A stretch of DNA of 11,895 nt, taken from the NCBI GenBank assembly GCA_937871985.1, contig CALMPB010000193.1:1-11895 (forward strand), written 5' to 3'. The notes under the pieces are model-generated. The model did no database searches and was not told the DNA's origin. It was given only the letters and a program-made list of their open reading frames with translations. Positions 2,943 to 8,379 of the stretch are shown here, piece by piece (position 1 is the stretch's first letter; every line of letters starts with the position of its first letter). This stretch comes from an uncultured Burkholderiaceae bacterium (lineage in GTDB: Bacteria > Pseudomonadota > Gammaproteobacteria > Burkholderiales > Burkholderiaceae). Position numbers and translations under genes: made by a program.

Positions 2943-2985
2943 AAGTCCTCTGGTAACTTGAGTGCAGTACCAGATCAGAGCCCCT

Positions 2986-5013
2986 ATGTTCAAGCGCTTT
3001 TTCCACTTCGTTGTCGATGCCCTGGAAGTCTCCGGGACCGTACTCAGCAGGTTCATTGTTTTCATCGTCGCAGGCTTTTGGCTGCTGGCGATTGCATGGA
3101 TGACGTTTCGAGGCTTCATGGATTGGGGGCCTGGTATTCAACTTGGGACGCTGCAAAAGCCCTCCGCCCTAGTGCCTCCATTGATCATCTTGTCGGCGGT
3201 GGGCCTGTGCTCTCTGCTGTGGCGGATGTTTGCCCGTTTGTTGCTAGGCGATCTGAGCGCCGGTTACTCGGATTTCATGTTGAATCTTGCACCTGTACTG
3301 GCTGTGTTGGGTGCGTGCTTCTTGGGGCAGGTTCTGTTCTTCTCCGATGTTCCTCGTGGTGCCGAGACGGTGGTGCCGGCGGTGTACGCTGGTTGGATGA
3401 CCATCCTCTCGGTCCTGGGTCGGTACGGGCCGTTGGCATCTGGCAGATTCACCACCAAGACCCGAGTCTCGAGTGGCGCGGTGAGGCAGGACGCCAAGGT
3501 GGAAAAGTCCGTGGCGCGCCGCACCCACCCGAAGATTACCTTCAACGACATCTTCGGCAACAACGAGATCAAGGCTCGCCTGAAAGACGCCGCCAACGCG
3601 ATCGTGGCTCGCCGCGGTGATGGCAAGGCCGCTCGCAACGGTATCTTGCTCTCCGGCGAGCCAGGCAACGGTAAGACCGTCTTTGCCGAAGCGCTGGCGG
3701 GCGAGCTCAAGCTTCCCCTGTTCCAACTCTCCGCTGCCGATGTGGCTAGCCCTTGGGTGGGCGAGAAGACCTCGCGCATCAACGCCGTGTTTGCCGAGGC
3801 GCGTGCCAATCAACCCTGCGTGCTGTTCATTGATGAGGTCGACAGCTTCCTCGACTCGCGTGATGGCGGCGGCCAAGGCGTGAAAGAGGACCGCGATGTG
3901 GTCAATGCGCTGCTCACGCTCATGGTGGACGTTCGCAAGGACCGGGTCATTCTCGTGGCCGCCACCAACCACATCGACCGCCTCGACGGAGCGGGCATCC
4001 GGGAGGGCCGCTTCGACTTCAAGGTAGAGATCACTCCGCCCGACAGCGAGGCCCGCGTTGGCCTGCTCACGCATGGTCTGAAGACCAACCTGCCCGGTGT
4101 GACCATCGACCAGACTGTCATCGAGGCCGTCGCGCGCCGTTGGAATGGCTTCTCGGTCAAGCGCATCCTGGCCGTGACCGAAGAACTGCCGTCCTATCTC
4201 CAACGCGAGGGCAAGACCCGACCGGCTTTCGAAGACTTCATGGGCGCGCTGCGCACGTTGCAAGGCCGCAAGGGCACGACCCTGGAGAACGTCAAACCCA
4301 TGGAAGATCTTGTACTGACGCCGACCACGCGCGACATGCTTGAGCTGGTCGCCGGGCGCATGGCCGATCCCGAGCATACGGAATTCCACGGCGGTACGTT
4401 GCCCACCGGCGTGCTGTTCTACGGCCCGCCCGGCACGGGCAAGACGGCCACCGCCAAAGCCTTGGCCAAAGCCATCGACTGGGCCTTTCTGCCCGCCACC
4501 GGTGCGGACCTCGCTCGCGACCCCAAATCGCTGGAGAAGCTCTACGCCAAGGCCAAGGAACTGCGCCCCTGCATTATCTTCGTGGATGAGGCTGACGAGT
4601 TGCTCAAGAGCCGCGACTACTCGCCCAACACCGAAGCCACCAACAAGCTGCTCACGCTTATGGATGGCGTCAACGACCGCGTCAAGGATGTGGTGTGGAT
4701 CGCAGCGACCAACAACCCTGAGCAGATTGATGCCGCTCTGCTGCGTGGTGGCCGGTTCACCGAGAAGGTGCTTTTCGAGCGCCCCAGCGCCGAGGCACTG
4801 GGAGCCTACCTGGAGAAGTGGTTCACCAGCCGCAAGGTGCAGTTGGAAGCAGGCCTGACGCTCGCGGCGGTGGGCAAGGCGGTCGAGGGGGAGAGTATCG
4901 CCAACGCCGAAGCCGTGGCCCAGGCCGCGCTCAATCGGGCGATCTCGCGGCGCGCTACGCCGGTCGTGGTCAGCCAAGCCGATCTCGAGCAGGCAGTCAG
5001 GACGGTGCTTTGA
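2986..5013 (+). CDS. Membrane-anchored tandem AAA+ ATPase in the T4SS operon
   Basis: This 675-aa protein has about four N-terminal membrane segments (residues about 18-40, 61-86, 97-119 and 128-145) followed by two AAA+ modules in Cdc48/p97 style. Module 1 has Walker A GEPGNGKT (224-231), pore-loop-like WVG (257-259), Walker B LFIDE (D283, E284), sensor-1 N328 and arginine-finger candidates R339 and R342. Module 2 has Walker A GPPGTGKT (480-487), Walker B IFVDE (D534, E535), sensor-1 N576 and R587/R590. Both ATP sites look intact. No HExxH is present, so it is not an FtsH protease. It is the extra gene between virB6 and virB1 and probably remodels or assembles a component at the inner membrane, which is inference. 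The ATG at 2986 is preferred; an in-frame GTG at 2962 would add eight residues, and neither has a clear Shine-Dalgarno. Module 2 lacks the aromatic pore residue. I do not recognise a named T4SS family for it. Confidence 0.9.
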   Translation: MFKRFFHFVVDALEVSGTVLSRFIVFIVAGFWLLAIAWMTFRGFMDWGPGIQLGTLQKPSALVPPLIILSAVGLCSLLWRMFARLLLGDLSAGYSDFMLNLAPVLAVLGACFLGQVLFFSDVPRGAETVVPAVYAGWMTILSVLGRYGPLASGRFTTKTRVSSGAVRQDAKVEKSVARRTHPKITFNDIFGNNEIKARLKDAANAIVARRGDGKAARNGILLSGEPGNGKTVFAEALAGELKLPLFQLSAADVASPWVGEKTSRINAVFAEARANQPCVLFIDEVDSFLDSRDGGGQGVKEDRDVVNALLTLMVDVRKDRVILVAATNHIDRLDGAGIREGRFDFKVEITPPDSEARVGLLTHGLKTNLPGVTIDQTVIEAVARRWNGFSVKRILAVTEELPSYLQREGKTRPAFEDFMGALRTLQGRKGTTLENVKPMEDLVLTPTTRDMLELVAGRMADPEHTEFHGGTLPTGVLFYGPPGTGKTATAKALAKAIDWAFLPATGADLARDPKSLEKLYAKAKELRPCIIFVDEADELLKSRDYSPNTEATNKLLTLMDGVNDRVKDVVWIAATNNPEQIDAALLRGGRFTEKVLFERPSAEALGAYLEKWFTSRKVQLEAGLTLAAVGKAVEGESIANAEAVAQAALNRAISRRATPVVVSQADLEQAVRTVL

Positions 5014-5015
5014 CC

Positions 5016-5630
5016 ATGCTTCGAATGTTGGGCCTGCTGCTGACAGGCGTCCTGATTGCGGGCGGTGCGCGCGCCCAGACGGCAGAAGCCATAACGAGCC
5101 TGGAGGACATGGCGCTCACGCCGGCGACTCGATGTGTGGTGGCCGCTGCCGAGCGCCATTCCGTGAATCCCTGGGTGCTCAAGGCGATCCTCAAGGTGGA
5201 GAGCAACTTCAACCCTGGGGCGGTCAATCGCAATCCGAACGGCACCAAAGACATCGGCATGGCGCAGATCAACACGATCCATCTGCGCGAGCTATCCAAG
5301 CACGGAATCAGCGGGACCGATCTTCTCGACCCCTGCGTGTCGACCTACGTGGCGGCATGGCACCTTGCCAAGCAGTATCGCCAGTATGGGAACACCTGGT
5401 TCGCGGTGGGCGCCTATCACTCAGTCACGCGCTGCTACAACGAGCGATACGTGGGCCTCGTGTGGAACGCCCTGGTGGACTGGAAGGTGATGGCAGAGCC
5501 GCGCCGGGCGACGAAGTCGCTGGAAGCATGCGGGTTCAAGGCCGTCTCCTCAGACGGCAGCACAAGAAAGCCGAGCAGCACCCGAATCGCCAAGGCGGCT
5601 AGCGCTGGCCTGCTTGCGTTCGATGAGTGA
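5016..5630 (+). CDS. virB1: VirB1-type lytic transglycosylase
   Basis: This 204-aa exported enzyme cleaves peptidoglycan to let the secretion channel pass. A signal peptide (MLRMLGLLLTGVLIAGGARA, cut near residue 20) precedes a soluble lytic transglycosylase (SLT/GEWL-fold) domain spanning about residues 35-165. The catalytic Glu is E62 in ILKVESNFNP, followed by the family motif GMAQIN at 81-86 and a late AVGAYHS element. C40, C113 and C139 could form disulfides. The frame stays open further upstream inside the AAA+ gene, but the ATG at 5016 is chosen because it begins the signal peptide. It lies two bases after the AAA+ stop, with AGGA at 4999-5002. The C-terminal tail of about 40 residues is Ser, Arg and Ala rich with no domain. 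The gene is immediately followed by the insertion element; removing that element joins it to the 149-aa gene 38 bp downstream. Confidence 0.93.
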   Translation: MLRMLGLLLTGVLIAGGARAQTAEAITSLEDMALTPATRCVVAAAERHSVNPWVLKAILKVESNFNPGAVNRNPNGTKDIGMAQINTIHLRELSKHGISGTDLLDPCVSTYVAAWHLAKQYRQYGNTWFAVGAYHSVTRCYNERYVGLVWNALVDWKVMAEPRRATKSLEACGFKAVSSDGSTRKPSSTRIAKAASAGLLAFDE

Positions 5631-5647
5631 GCGTAGGCGAGCGCGTG

Positions 5648-5655
5648 CACCGATC
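5648..5655. repeat. Left target-site duplication of the insertion element
   Basis: CACCGATC lies directly before the left terminal inverted repeat and is repeated exactly at 7909-7916 after the right one. Eight bases is the usual duplication length for IS1595-family elements, and the perfect copy points to a fairly recent insertion. Confidence 0.92.
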
Positions 5656-5678
5656 CGGCGCTATTTACTTTAGACAAG
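5656..5678 (+). repeat. Left terminal inverted repeat (IRL)
   Basis: The repeat begins CGGCGCTATTTAC and ends TTTAGACAAG. It matches the reverse complement of 7886-7908 at 19 of 23 positions, with mismatches at positions 4, 5, 6 and 14. It is probably the transposase binding site. Just inside it, ACAAG-T-CTTGT (5674-5684) forms a short palindrome. Confidence 0.9.
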
Positions 5679-5698
5679 TCTTGTGACGCAATGTCGGC

Positions 5699-6632
5699 AT
5701 GGACCTAAAACAGTTCGCAGACACTTTTGGCACAGAGGAGCAGTGCGTCGAGTACCTCGCACGCACGCGCTGGCCGCATGGTCCCGTCTGCGACAAGTGC
5801 GGCTCCATTTCGGATGCCTGGAAGACGGCGCAGCCGCGCACCTGGGCATGCCGAGCCTGCCAAAAGCAGTTCAGCGTGACTGCTGGCACGCCCATGGAGC
5901 GCACTCACTTGCCGCTGCCGGCCTGGTTCATGGCTATCTACCTGATCGCCACCTCGAGCAAAGGCGTTTCGGCAATGGTCATCAGCAGACAGCTGGGCAT
6001 CTCTTACAAAACCGCCTGGCTCTTGTGTCATCGGATTCGCCAGCTTCTGGCGGACGACGATTTCACTCTCAAGGGCATCGTTGAAGTCGATGAGACCTAC
6101 ATCGGCGGGAAGCGCCGCCGCGATACGAAGAGCAAGCGCGACAGCGATGATGACCAACCCAAGGGGGCGCGGCGGCTCCCGCAAGATGATGCCGATCACT
6201 GCGGTTGAGCGCGACGGTAAAGCCAAAGCACGCAAGGGCCGACCCCACAGCGAGCGAACCATCGCGGGGGCAGTGTTCGATTGGCTCGACCGAGATTCTG
6301 TGCTCGTCACCGACGAGCTGCCAGCCTATCGATGGATCGGCAAGCGCTTCCCAGCGCACCTACGCGTGAACCACAGCAAGGGAAAATGGTCCAGGCGCGG
6401 TCCGCTAGCCGTCGCATGTGCACACACCAACAGCGTTGACAGCTTCAACGCCACCATCAGACGCGCCATCGCTGGCGTTTGGCACTGGTTCAGCATCAAG
6501 CACGCAGACAGGTATCTGCGAGAGCTGGCCGTGCGCTGGAACATGCGGCGGATGAGCCGGATGGAGCGATTTGATGCAGTTCTCGGCTCGATGTTTGGTC
6601 GCCCGCTGAGCTGGAGGGCATTGACCGCATGA
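5699..6632 (+). pseudogene. tnpA: IS1595-family DDE transposase, frameshifted
   Basis: The product would catalyse cut-and-paste or replicative movement of the element. The first part (5699-6208, 169 aa) begins MDLKQFADTFGTEEQC, a typical IS1595 start. It has an N-terminal zinc ribbon (C31, C34, C51, C54), a helical DNA-binding region, and the first catalytic Asp in VEVDETYIGG (D131). The rest is in the next frame: the second Asp in VLVTDELPAY (codon 6312), then NHSKGKW, HTNSVDSF (acidic residue at codon 6438) and GVWHWFSIKHADRYLREL, the conserved C-terminal block. The frames meet at a GGGGG run (6163-6167); removing one G restores a 310-aa protein, the usual family length. It is probably inactivated by a one-base insertion, though slippage at the run or a sequencing error cannot be excluded. 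No good Shine-Dalgarno precedes the start. The stop overlaps tnpB. Confidence 0.9.
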
Positions 6633-7894
6633 ACGAGGCCAAGATCACCCGCGCTGCCGTGCTGCGCCTTTACCCTAACCAGCAGCAGGTCTCAGCCCTG
6701 CGCCGCTGGCAGGGTGGGCTGCGCTACGTCTGGAACGCAGCTCTGGACTGCGTGTTCACTTCGCGCGATATCAACGGCTGCTGGCCCAGCAAGGCAGAAA
6801 TCCAGTCCCTGATCGTCGCCATGAAAAAGATGGAGGGGACAGAATGGCTCTCCGACATCCCCGCGCACTCGCTGCTGACGCTAGCCGATGATCTCCACAA
6901 AGCCTTGGCGAACTGGTTCAACAGCATCTCTGGCAAGCGCAAGGGGCCCAAGATCGCCCGTCCGCGCTTTCGGGGCAAGTACGCCCGGCAGTTCTCGGTC
7001 TACATGGTCAACCAGAACACTTCGTTCGGTGATGGCCTGGTCAAACTACCCAAGCTGGGGCTGGTGAAATTCCGGGCGGGTGACCTGCCTGCCGGGCGCC
7101 TGCTCTCCAGTCGCGTCTACCGCGAGGCAGACAAGTGGTTCATGGCCAGCATCTTCGAGTGCGCTGCACCGGAGATGAATGCTGCACCCATTGAGTGTGT
7201 CGGCATCGACATGGGCCTCAAGACCCTGGCTACCATCTATGACGGGCAGAGCATCCGGGAAGTGCCCAAACTCGGCGCTCTGCGCAAGCATGAGCAGAGA
7301 CTGAAGCGATACCAGCGTCGGATGAGTCGCCGTGTCAAAGGGAGTAACCGCCACAATCAGGCCAAGCAGGCCGTCGCACGGCTGCACCAGCGAATCGCCA
7401 ACATCCGCAACGCCTACGCACACAAGGCGACCAGTGAGATCGTGGCCTGCGCGCAGACGATCAAGGTCGAGACCCTCAACATCAAGGGCTGGGCGAAGAA
7501 CCGCAGCATTTCCAAGAGCACCGCCGACGCCAGCGTCGGGATGTTCCTAAGCATGCTGCGCTACAAGGCTGACTGGGCCGGGCGAAGCTTGGTCGAGGTG
7601 GGTCAATGGGAGCCGACCAGCAAGACCTGCAGCAACTGCGGCTTACATGAACAAGGCGTTGTGCTGGGTGTCAGCCGATGGGTTTGCAGCGCCTGTGGCG
7701 CGATCCACGACCGCGACCACAACGCGGCGAAGAACATTTATGCGTACGGCGAGGAACGCCGAAACGTGACCGGCAACACGGTCGAAAGCGCGTGGACTGG
7801 TGGAGATCAGGCGGGAGCAATCCCGCCAGTGCCCCAGGAAGAAACGCGAATCTTGAAACGGGCGGCGAGCGATTCAGATCGCGCGCTTGTCTAA
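6629..7894 (+). CDS. tnpB: TnpB, OrfB-type RuvC RNA-guided nuclease (passenger gene)
   Basis: TnpB proteins are small RuvC nucleases, ancestors of Cas12, guided by an omega-RNA transcribed from the transposon end. This 421-aa protein is close to the usual size of about 400 aa and looks complete. It has an N-terminal helix-turn-helix-like region (LYPNQQQVSALRRWQGGLRYVWN) broken by no stop. The RuvC residues are D194 in GIDMGLKTLATI, E281 in VETLNIKGWAKN and D363 in DRDHNAAKNI. The zinc ribbon between the last two has C334, C337, C353 and C356. Its ATG overlaps the tnpA stop as ATGA, with GGAGG at 6613-6617, which suggests coupled translation. The stop falls within the right inverted repeat. 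Nuclease activity is inferred from the family and the intact catalytic set; its biological role in this element is unknown. Confidence 0.93.
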   Translation: MNEAKITRAAVLRLYPNQQQVSALRRWQGGLRYVWNAALDCVFTSRDINGCWPSKAEIQSLIVAMKKMEGTEWLSDIPAHSLLTLADDLHKALANWFNSISGKRKGPKIARPRFRGKYARQFSVYMVNQNTSFGDGLVKLPKLGLVKFRAGDLPAGRLLSSRVYREADKWFMASIFECAAPEMNAAPIECVGIDMGLKTLATIYDGQSIREVPKLGALRKHEQRLKRYQRRMSRRVKGSNRHNQAKQAVARLHQRIANIRNAYAHKATSEIVACAQTIKVETLNIKGWAKNRSISKSTADASVGMFLSMLRYKADWAGRSLVEVGQWEPTSKTCSNCGLHEQGVVLGVSRWVCSACGAIHDRDHNAAKNIYAYGEERRNVTGNTVESAWTGGDQAGAIPPVPQEETRILKRAASDSDRALV

Positions 7895-7908
7895 CGTAAA
7901 TAATTCCG
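7768..7908 (+). ncRNA. Candidate omega-RNA scaffold at the right end (inside 3' tnpB)
   Basis: Three hairpins follow each other at the 3' end of tnpB: GACCG/CGGTC (7768-7783), GGCGGGA-GCAA-TCCCGCC with a GNRA tetraloop (7810-7827), and an eight-pair stem with one A-G mismatch around loop TCAG (7865-7886), abutting the right inverted repeat. In characterised TnpB systems the guide RNA scaffold comes from the 3' end of tnpB and the transposon right end, and the guide lies just outside. By analogy the guide here would start at 7909. No promoter or transcript is shown, and hairpins are easy to form at this GC content, so this is a hypothesis. Confidence 0.35.
7886..7908 (-). repeat. Right terminal inverted repeat (IRR)
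   Basis: The repeat begins CTTGTCTAACG and ends AATAATTCCG, the imperfect inverse of 5656-5678. The tnpB stop codon TAA (7892-7894) lies within it. Confidence 0.9.
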
Positions 7909-7916
7909 CACCGATC
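7909..7916. repeat. Right target-site duplication of the insertion element
   Basis: CACCGATC is identical to 5648-5655 and immediately follows the right inverted repeat, which fixes the element's right boundary at 7908. Confidence 0.92.
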
Positions 7917-7929
7917 AGATGGATTCTCG

Positions 7930-8379
7930 ATGAATAAGACAGAAGAACTGCTGCAGCAAATCCTGGCCCTTCCTGAGGGCGAGCGGTTGCGCATCCTCGA
8001 TGTACTTGCAGCGTTGCATGGCAAGCCAGCACGCCAAGAAGGGGTGGCCCCGCGCGCCGCGGCGGAGCAGGAGCAGGGACATGAGCGGTCCGAACTCGAA
8101 AGCGTCAAGCTCTGGTACGAAGGACTCCCTCCTACCGCTAGCCTGTACGACCGCCTTCAGCAGATTGAGTACGCACTTGAGCAGGTCGAAGAGAGCGAGG
8201 CCTTTGAGTACTTGCAGCAACAGCGAAAGGCCATACTCGATGACCGGCCGAGCCTTGCCGTTCGGTTGTCGGTGACAAAGATCGCCACTGAGCAGCCTTG
8301 GGTGGTTGTGGGTGCAATAGTTGGTGTCCTGCTCGGCGGGGCTGCGATCGCACGCTGGGGCTGGGCCCTGTGGTTCTAG
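7930..8379 (+). CDS. Unrecognised 149-aa protein with C-terminal membrane anchor
   Basis: I do not recognise this protein. It has no signal peptide. The N terminus (MNKTEELLQQILALPEGERL, residues 1-20) and the middle (about 72-105) are helical and rich in Leu, Glu and Gln. A variable Ala, Arg and Glu segment lies at about 33-55. A single hydrophobic helix follows at about 125-147 (PWVVVGAIVGVLLGGAAIARW) and ends at the C terminus, so it is probably a tail-anchored inner-membrane protein with a cytoplasmic body. The PW and Gly-rich tail faintly recalls ElaB/YqjD C-terminal anchors, but the remainder does not match. The ATG at 7930 has only a weak GATGGA (7918-7923) upstream. The insertion element ends just before this, so expression may be altered. 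Before the insertion it lay 38 bp after virB1 and ahead of a terminator, which suggests a T4SS accessory role such as assembly or exclusion; that is speculation. Confidence 0.75.
   Translation: MNKTEELLQQILALPEGERLRILDVLAALHGKPARQEGVAPRAAAEQEQGHERSELESVKLWYEGLPPTASLYDRLQQIEYALEQVEESEAFEYLQQQRKAILDDRPSLAVRLSVTKIATEQPWVVVGAIVGVLLGGAAIARWGWALWF

Follow-up and report, generated by a model that had tools for sequence, protein, structure and literature searches.

We propose that tnpB, the gene of an RNA-guided nuclease, together with an omega RNA overlapping its 3' end, is an established and repeatedly acquired module of certain IS1595-type elements, and that a guide led by the target-site duplication probably sends TnpB to unoccupied insertion sites. 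Sequence comparison establishes the bounded unit, the tnpA-tnpB overlap, the nuclease residues, an RNA-like tail on tnpB and the recurrence of the pairing, while the action of the guide is a prediction. The element lies in an 11,895-nucleotide stretch of DNA from an uncultured Burkholderiaceae bacterium, hereafter called the window (Table 1).

Boundaries and genes of the window element

We scanned all pairs of 23-mers with left starts at 5401–5800 and right ends at 7723–8122 and listed those with at least 16 matches. The best pair was IRL and IRR (19/23 matching), which was also the only one of the 14 listed pairs with an exact 8-bp duplication; the element thus has the ends of the IS1595 family. 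Its flanks form a type IV secretion operon, and the Hydrogenophaga plasmid pBPS33-1, the one plasmid record found with that operon, aligns over the joined flanks with the site empty. The same operon encodes, at 2962–5013, a protein of 683 aa containing two AAA ATPase modules (FtsH and CDC48 family models fit best, under their cut-offs), 5' of a lytic transglycosylase; the gene order is similar in pBPS33-1 and at locus L004. At L004 (5397–7475), part of the 3' end of the transglycosylase gene is duplicated downstream of a remnant of this element's tnpB, close to where the window insertion lies in the operon.

Table 1 Features of the window element, and bounded elements with tnpB (duplications exact unless stated)
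Feature	Position	Strand	Sequence	Basis or remark
Candidate TAM position	5643–5647	+	GCGTG	Predicted; exception among eight sites
Target-site duplication, left copy	5648–5655	.	CACCGATC	End scan
IRL, left inverted repeat	5656–5678	+		19/23 matches to IRR
tnpA, N-terminal part	5699–6208	+		Zinc ribbon PF12760 and DDE domain start; ORFs, Pfam, NCBIfam
tnpA, C-terminal part	6132–6632	+		Other frame, rest of PF12762; ORFs, Pfam, NCBIfam
tnpB, 421 aa, one open frame	6629–7894	+		ATG overlaps tnpA stop (ATGA); ORF, Pfam, NCBIfam
Predicted omega-RNA scaffold (5' end approximate)	7736–7908	+		Constraint, folds; overlaps last ~46 tnpB codons, through IRR
IRR, right inverted repeat	7886–7908	-		Holds tnpB stop; end scan, fold
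Target-site duplication, right copy	7909–7916	.	CACCGATC	Would be first 8 nt of guide
Predicted guide stretch	7909–7928	+		Duplication and right flank; expected from TnpB biology
Bounded, tnpA + tnpB: window			CACCGATC, preceded by GCGTG
Bounded, tnpA + tnpB: L206			AGGGTACG, preceded by GGATA
Bounded, tnpA + tnpB: L209			ATCATCTG, preceded by GTTCA
Bounded, truncated tnpA + tnpB: L003			TTCTCCAT, preceded by TGGTA
Bounded, tnpA + tnpB: L288			ACGGCAGG, preceded by AAGTA
Bounded, tnpA + tnpB: L365			TTTGAGCC, preceded by AGATA
Bounded, tnpB only (tnpA deleted): L086			GGGTTCGA, preceded by CCATA
Bounded, tnpB only (tnpA deleted): L360			AGAGCACGA, preceded by CTACA	Both sides; exact 8-mer needs one end shifted 1 base

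Pfam and NCBIfam name tnpA an IS1595 transposase, with the zinc ribbon (PF12760) and DDE domain (PF12762/NF033547) of that family. A frame change near 6160–6175 ends the N-terminal part early, after the first 30 DDE-domain columns; scored apart against NF033547, this part reaches 91.4 bits (cut-off 75), and the C-terminal part, at 74.8 bits, narrowly misses the cut-off. The window TnpA has D as its third catalytic residue (NSVDSFNAT), and every aligned relative covering that position has E. With both the frame change and the E-to-D substitution, the window copy lacks an intact transposase with a catalytic DDE; the relatives P0122 and L005 encode tnpA as a single open frame with E. We rejected a programmed frameshift, close relatives P0122 and P0124 being single open frames. 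Since a short TnpA form (P0194) comprises 15 member sequences on two contigs, the split may be no mere reading error of the record. With its tnpA disrupted, the window copy would probably need a transposase provided in trans to move, but its tnpB could remain active. A named IS1595 transposase protein from Hydrogenophaga taeniospiralis (P0166) ends, by eye, in a tnpB-like stretch and looks like an internal deletion joining tnpA and tnpB.

The downstream gene is named TnpB by Pfam and NCBIfam. A protein search returned 3294 relatives at E 1e-3, of which the best 120 were listed; in an alignment (A1) of 45 TnpB clusters at 44–88% identity plus the window, the RuvC residues D194, E281 and D363 and the zinc-finger cysteines C334, C337 and C356 are invariant in all 46 sequences. 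An AlphaFold model (mean pLDDT 80.7, pTM 0.59) has a single segment with pLDDT below 50, residues 376–421, coinciding with the tail that overlaps the predicted omega RNA, and its core matches the TnpB-omegaRNA structure 8h1j (TM 0.77/0.88), as expected of the TnpB fold. The window TnpB is complete, with its nuclease residues kept, and would be expected to cut DNA.

The initial annotation had placed the ends at 23-bp repeats (19 of 23 matching) with an exact 8-bp duplication, and had tnpB begin on the tnpA stop (ATGA) and terminate within the right repeat, all of which our analysis bears out. It had also described the contents as a DDE transposase and an intact TnpB; the IS1595 type and the intact TnpB stood, whereas tnpA proved to be frame-changed and to carry the E-to-D substitution.

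Recurrence and origins of the pairing

IS1595 tnpA is joined to tnpB at 13 distinct loci (the window, L003, L005, L084, L206, L207, L208, L209, L210, L212, L288, L359 and L365), counted after removal of same-contig repeats (L088 = L207, L361 = L212, L362 = L208) and with L286, a decayed copy 86% like L003, kept out. The TnpBs of these recurring units range from 91% (L084) to 38% (L088) identity to the window TnpB, with more distant groups besides. Eight bounded elements with tnpB occupy different sites, six with tnpA (one truncated) and two with tnpA deleted (Table 1); the L360 duplication was found by its end pattern and is absent from the automatic duplication search. L005 has inverted repeats and no duplication, and a search for matching duplications at L359 and L361 found none. 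The L210 contig lacks the right flank and that of L208 the right end; the left repeat is lost in L004, L085, L207 and L357, and none was seen at L358. L209 and L210 represent the same element inserted at two unrelated sites. Most tnpB-bearing relatives sit on metagenomic or viral contigs; L288 comes from a named strain, Salipiger profundus JLT2016 (plasmid pTPRO6). A 146-aa open frame at L361 (2031–2575), between the left repeat and tnpA and overlapping the tnpA start, had no Pfam match.

The pairing seems uncommon among IS1595 elements. A tnpA scan of viral contigs found TnpB beside tnpA at 6 of 80 kept loci (275 relatives), including the five best matches. From two genome draws, one of 385 in the class of L043 (Parvibaculum) and one of 369 in that of L004, more than 58 IS1595 matches were listed; the 58 loci taken from these (2.3–3.9 kb) all lacked TnpB, which suggests that only a minority of IS1595 elements carry tnpB. 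Draws from the order and family (399 genomes each) gave a close TnpB match only in the L004 genome (718 bits), the next best being ordinary TnpBs (279 bits), and one DNA match; a search of plasmids at E 1e-40 returned no relative of the group-3 TnpB. When TnpA and TnpB clusters were linked by equal-sized longest contigs, using the first 58 of 120 TnpB rows and the first 59 TnpA rows with a value, five links appeared (mean 0.545, maximum 4 over 400 offsets), of which four count because one contig is too short for both genes. One further locus found by the group-3 end pattern, L367, was rejected as a chance match in a phage region.

In a TnpA tree of 106 rows, built without the window (split), L003 (truncated), L084 and L210, the nine tested tnpB-linked TnpAs fell within one clade of 25 rows (SH-aLRT 99). 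The other members of that clade were 14 rows of unknown context and 2 tnpB-less rows, out of 80 tnpB-less rows sampled. In the TnpB tree (89 rows), a branch of less than strong support (83.7) set apart 16 rows made up of TnpB groups 1–3 and relatives of unknown context, next to serine-recombinase-linked TnpBs; group 4 (L288, L003, L365) lay in another part of the tree, alongside a serine-labelled row. A topology uniting all four groups was rejected (p-AU 1.25e-5, with a warning from the tool of long branches there). These trees place the TnpBs paired with IS1595 in at least two lineages, which fits uptake of TnpB at least twice by one transposase lineage.

Several earlier expectations can be revisited against these loci. 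That tnpB is an established part of the element and no chance nested insertion agrees with the 13 loci and eight bounded elements; tnpB is not confined to a single copy, and the units recur at different sites with different duplications. A shared ATGA junction with varied duplications was expected: the sites and 8-bp duplications do vary, but ATGA is limited to the nearest group (window, L005, L084), the others having GTGA or TGATG. The independent pairing of nuclease and DDE transposase envisaged by the initial annotation holds more strongly than claimed, because at least two TnpB lineages were taken up.

Predicted omega RNA, guide and competing explanations

Silent sites at the 3' end of tnpB are constrained about four-fold. 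The silent-site change was 0.063 in the last 46 codons vs 0.254 elsewhere in group 1 (5 loci) and 0.101 in the last 50 codons vs 0.394 elsewhere in group 3 (4 loci), values as low occurring in none of 20,000 column permutations for each group. Despite this constraint, the protein tail is less conserved than the rest in group 3 (amino-acid difference 0.33 vs 0.14) and about equally conserved in group 1 (0.12 vs 0.10). RNAalifold structures, derived from the same alignments (six and seven sequences) in which covariation was counted, had changes on both sides in 10 of 44 pairs in group 1 (shuffled mean 2.1, 0/500; counted without the first helix, 9 pairs in the coding part), resting largely on one distant sequence, L005. 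The corresponding figures for group 3 were 12 of 52 pairs (shuffled mean 7.2, 1/500) and 27 covarying cells (shuffled mean 9.7, 0/500). Slide controls, like shuffles, gave lower covariation in both groups, which by eye share two successive 5' hairpins. We take the constrained, covarying tail, a feature expected of TnpB genes, as the mark of a predicted omega RNA reaching the right repeat. Rfam gave no match up to E 1 in 5600–8050.

The right repeat itself probably belongs to the scaffold. In the minimum-energy fold of the window (z -2.69), part of IRR pairs with 7736–7742, a pairing absent from the group consensus; in group 3, columns 151–156 pair with 191–196, joining IRR to upstream sequence, in columns that hardly vary and lend little covariation support. 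Because IRR bases pair within the predicted scaffolds, we do not favour IRR as a guide against the ends of other copies.

The bases left of the duplication suggest a candidate TAM. TA or CA occurs at seven of the eight sites vs 7 of 39 tnpB-less controls (Fisher p 0.0004; 6/7, p 0.0011, without L360), and A at -1 at 7/8 vs 10/39 (p 0.0019; 6/7, p 0.0047, without L360), in a motif that rests on eight sites and had caught our attention before the count was made. RTA is found in groups 1, 2 and 4 and CA in group 3; the window reads GTG, neither of the two. L209 and L210 are both preceded by CGCGTTCA, if the cut-off L210 duplication is 8 bp, and on the same assumption of an 8-bp duplication, A stands by eye at -1 in L005, L210, L359, L361 and L208, which lie outside the count (duplication absent or cut). 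The controls were tnpB-less IS1595 with an exact duplication and at least 18/24 repeat matches (143 loci examined, 52 candidates, 40 passed, 39 after one duplicate was removed). The TAMs characterised by Nety 2023 (PMC10278001) are at most 5 nt long and nearly all AT-rich.

From these features we assemble the following mechanism. The transcript would run through IRR into the flank, and TnpB, which is reported to process its own mRNA into omega RNA (PMC10278001), would obtain a guide made of the 8-bp duplication followed by right-flank sequence. This guide would match the unoccupied site next to a TAM, immediately left of the duplication, that would read RTA or, in one group, CA. With such a guide and TAM, TnpB would cut the insertion site wherever it is still empty, be it on a sister chromosome, another plasmid copy or a phage genome. 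Repair templated by the copy that carries the element would then keep or spread it, as a preprint reports for IS200/IS605 TnpB, which cuts plasmid copies lacking its element and so drives the element into them (PMC11870625). We put forward more tentatively, as a possibility slightly short of an even chance, that transposition writes its own guide, with the duplication as seed, the inverted repeat as scaffold and the TAM just outside, and that one IS1595 clade arrived at this arrangement two or more times by capturing two TnpB lineages, paralleling Fanzor1 in eukaryotes.

The flank motif could instead have arisen from the transposase, because the controls come from other TnpA subclades that have a bias of their own (in 18/39, a T to the right of the duplication). 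TA/CA would then be a target preference of this IS1595 clade with no bearing on TnpB, an ordinary passenger. Long spans between the repeats of many tnpB-less elements suggest that other passenger genes are common in IS1595 (35 of 40 elements with exact duplications and good repeats, from loci L211–L342 and L294, span at least 2 kb, up to 4.3 kb), and RTA is common to groups 1, 2 and 4 with unrelated TnpBs. A symmetric transposase, however, should produce a mirrored motif, and a mirrored A right of the duplication occurs at 0/8 sites; group 3 also differs in having CA. We judge a mere target preference unlikely. We give still less credence to a TnpB turned to other use, as a regulator, a nuclease with a fixed guide or one used in phage or plasmid competition, whose guide would hold no record of the insertion site. 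The tnpB frame does stay open at loci that have lost tnpA or keep a remnant of it (L004, L085, L086, L357, L358, L360), and its persistence in L004, L085 and L357 without tnpA or the left repeat fits a role apart from transposition. In these three, tnpB lies 3' of another gene whose stop overlaps the tnpB start or is 4–8 nt from it (L004 5994–6001, L085 6001–6004, L357 3489–3501), as if selection maintains tnpB translation, and the most conserved RNA block of group 3 stops about 15–27 nt before IRR. On the other side, group 1 keeps its RuvC residues, the group-3 stretch before IRR is a predicted hairpin with IRR pairing upstream, and L086 and L360 are bounded elements with duplications.

A tnpB dropped by chance into one IS1595 copy, as a nested IS200/IS605 or IS607, has next to no likelihood. 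TnpB does usually accompany Y1 or serine transposases (PMC10711439), but thirteen distinct loci, eight bounded elements and overlapping junctions speak against such an event, and two Y1 queries and one serine query found no match beside the window tnpB; we rejected nested insertion on the recurrence of the tnpA-tnpB units.

Comparison with known systems

Models of how TnpB works are built mainly on elements with Y1 or serine enzymes, which lack a long duplication. A DDE element in bacteria that is flanked by 8-bp repeats of its target offers a test of whether RNA-guided-nuclease retention or drive operates under other transposases, and the predicted scaffold, guide and TAM make our reading directly testable. 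The IS1595-linked group may also be a source of compact nucleases.

Like other members of the IS1595 family, these elements have a zinc ribbon and DDE domain, inverted repeats, 8-bp duplications and room for downstream passengers; unlike known IS1595, they carry an RNA-guided nuclease as passenger, with a predicted guide-RNA scaffold that overlaps the right repeat. With IS607 and IS200/IS605 they share the TnpB fold, the RuvC residues, an omega-RNA-like tail over tnpB and the expected TAM and guide logic, but the mobilising enzyme here is a DDE transposase acting with inverted repeats and an 8-bp duplication, where IS200/IS605 has a Y1 enzyme without such repeats or duplication and IS607 a serine recombinase. 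Our literature search (TnpB with IS1595 or DDE; IS1595 passengers) found no report of a bacterial pairing in the accessible text of its sources. In eukaryotes, Fanzor1, a TnpB relative, is known to be paired with DDE elements (Bao and Jurka 2013, PMC3627910; Yoon 2023, PMC10711439). IS1595-TnpB would be the bacterial counterpart of this capture and resembles it in that a terminal repeat is predicted to contribute to the guide-RNA scaffold. Unlike the scaffolds of eukaryotic Fanzor1, which reportedly include the duplication, the one predicted here would end at the repeat, so that the variable duplication would start the guide.
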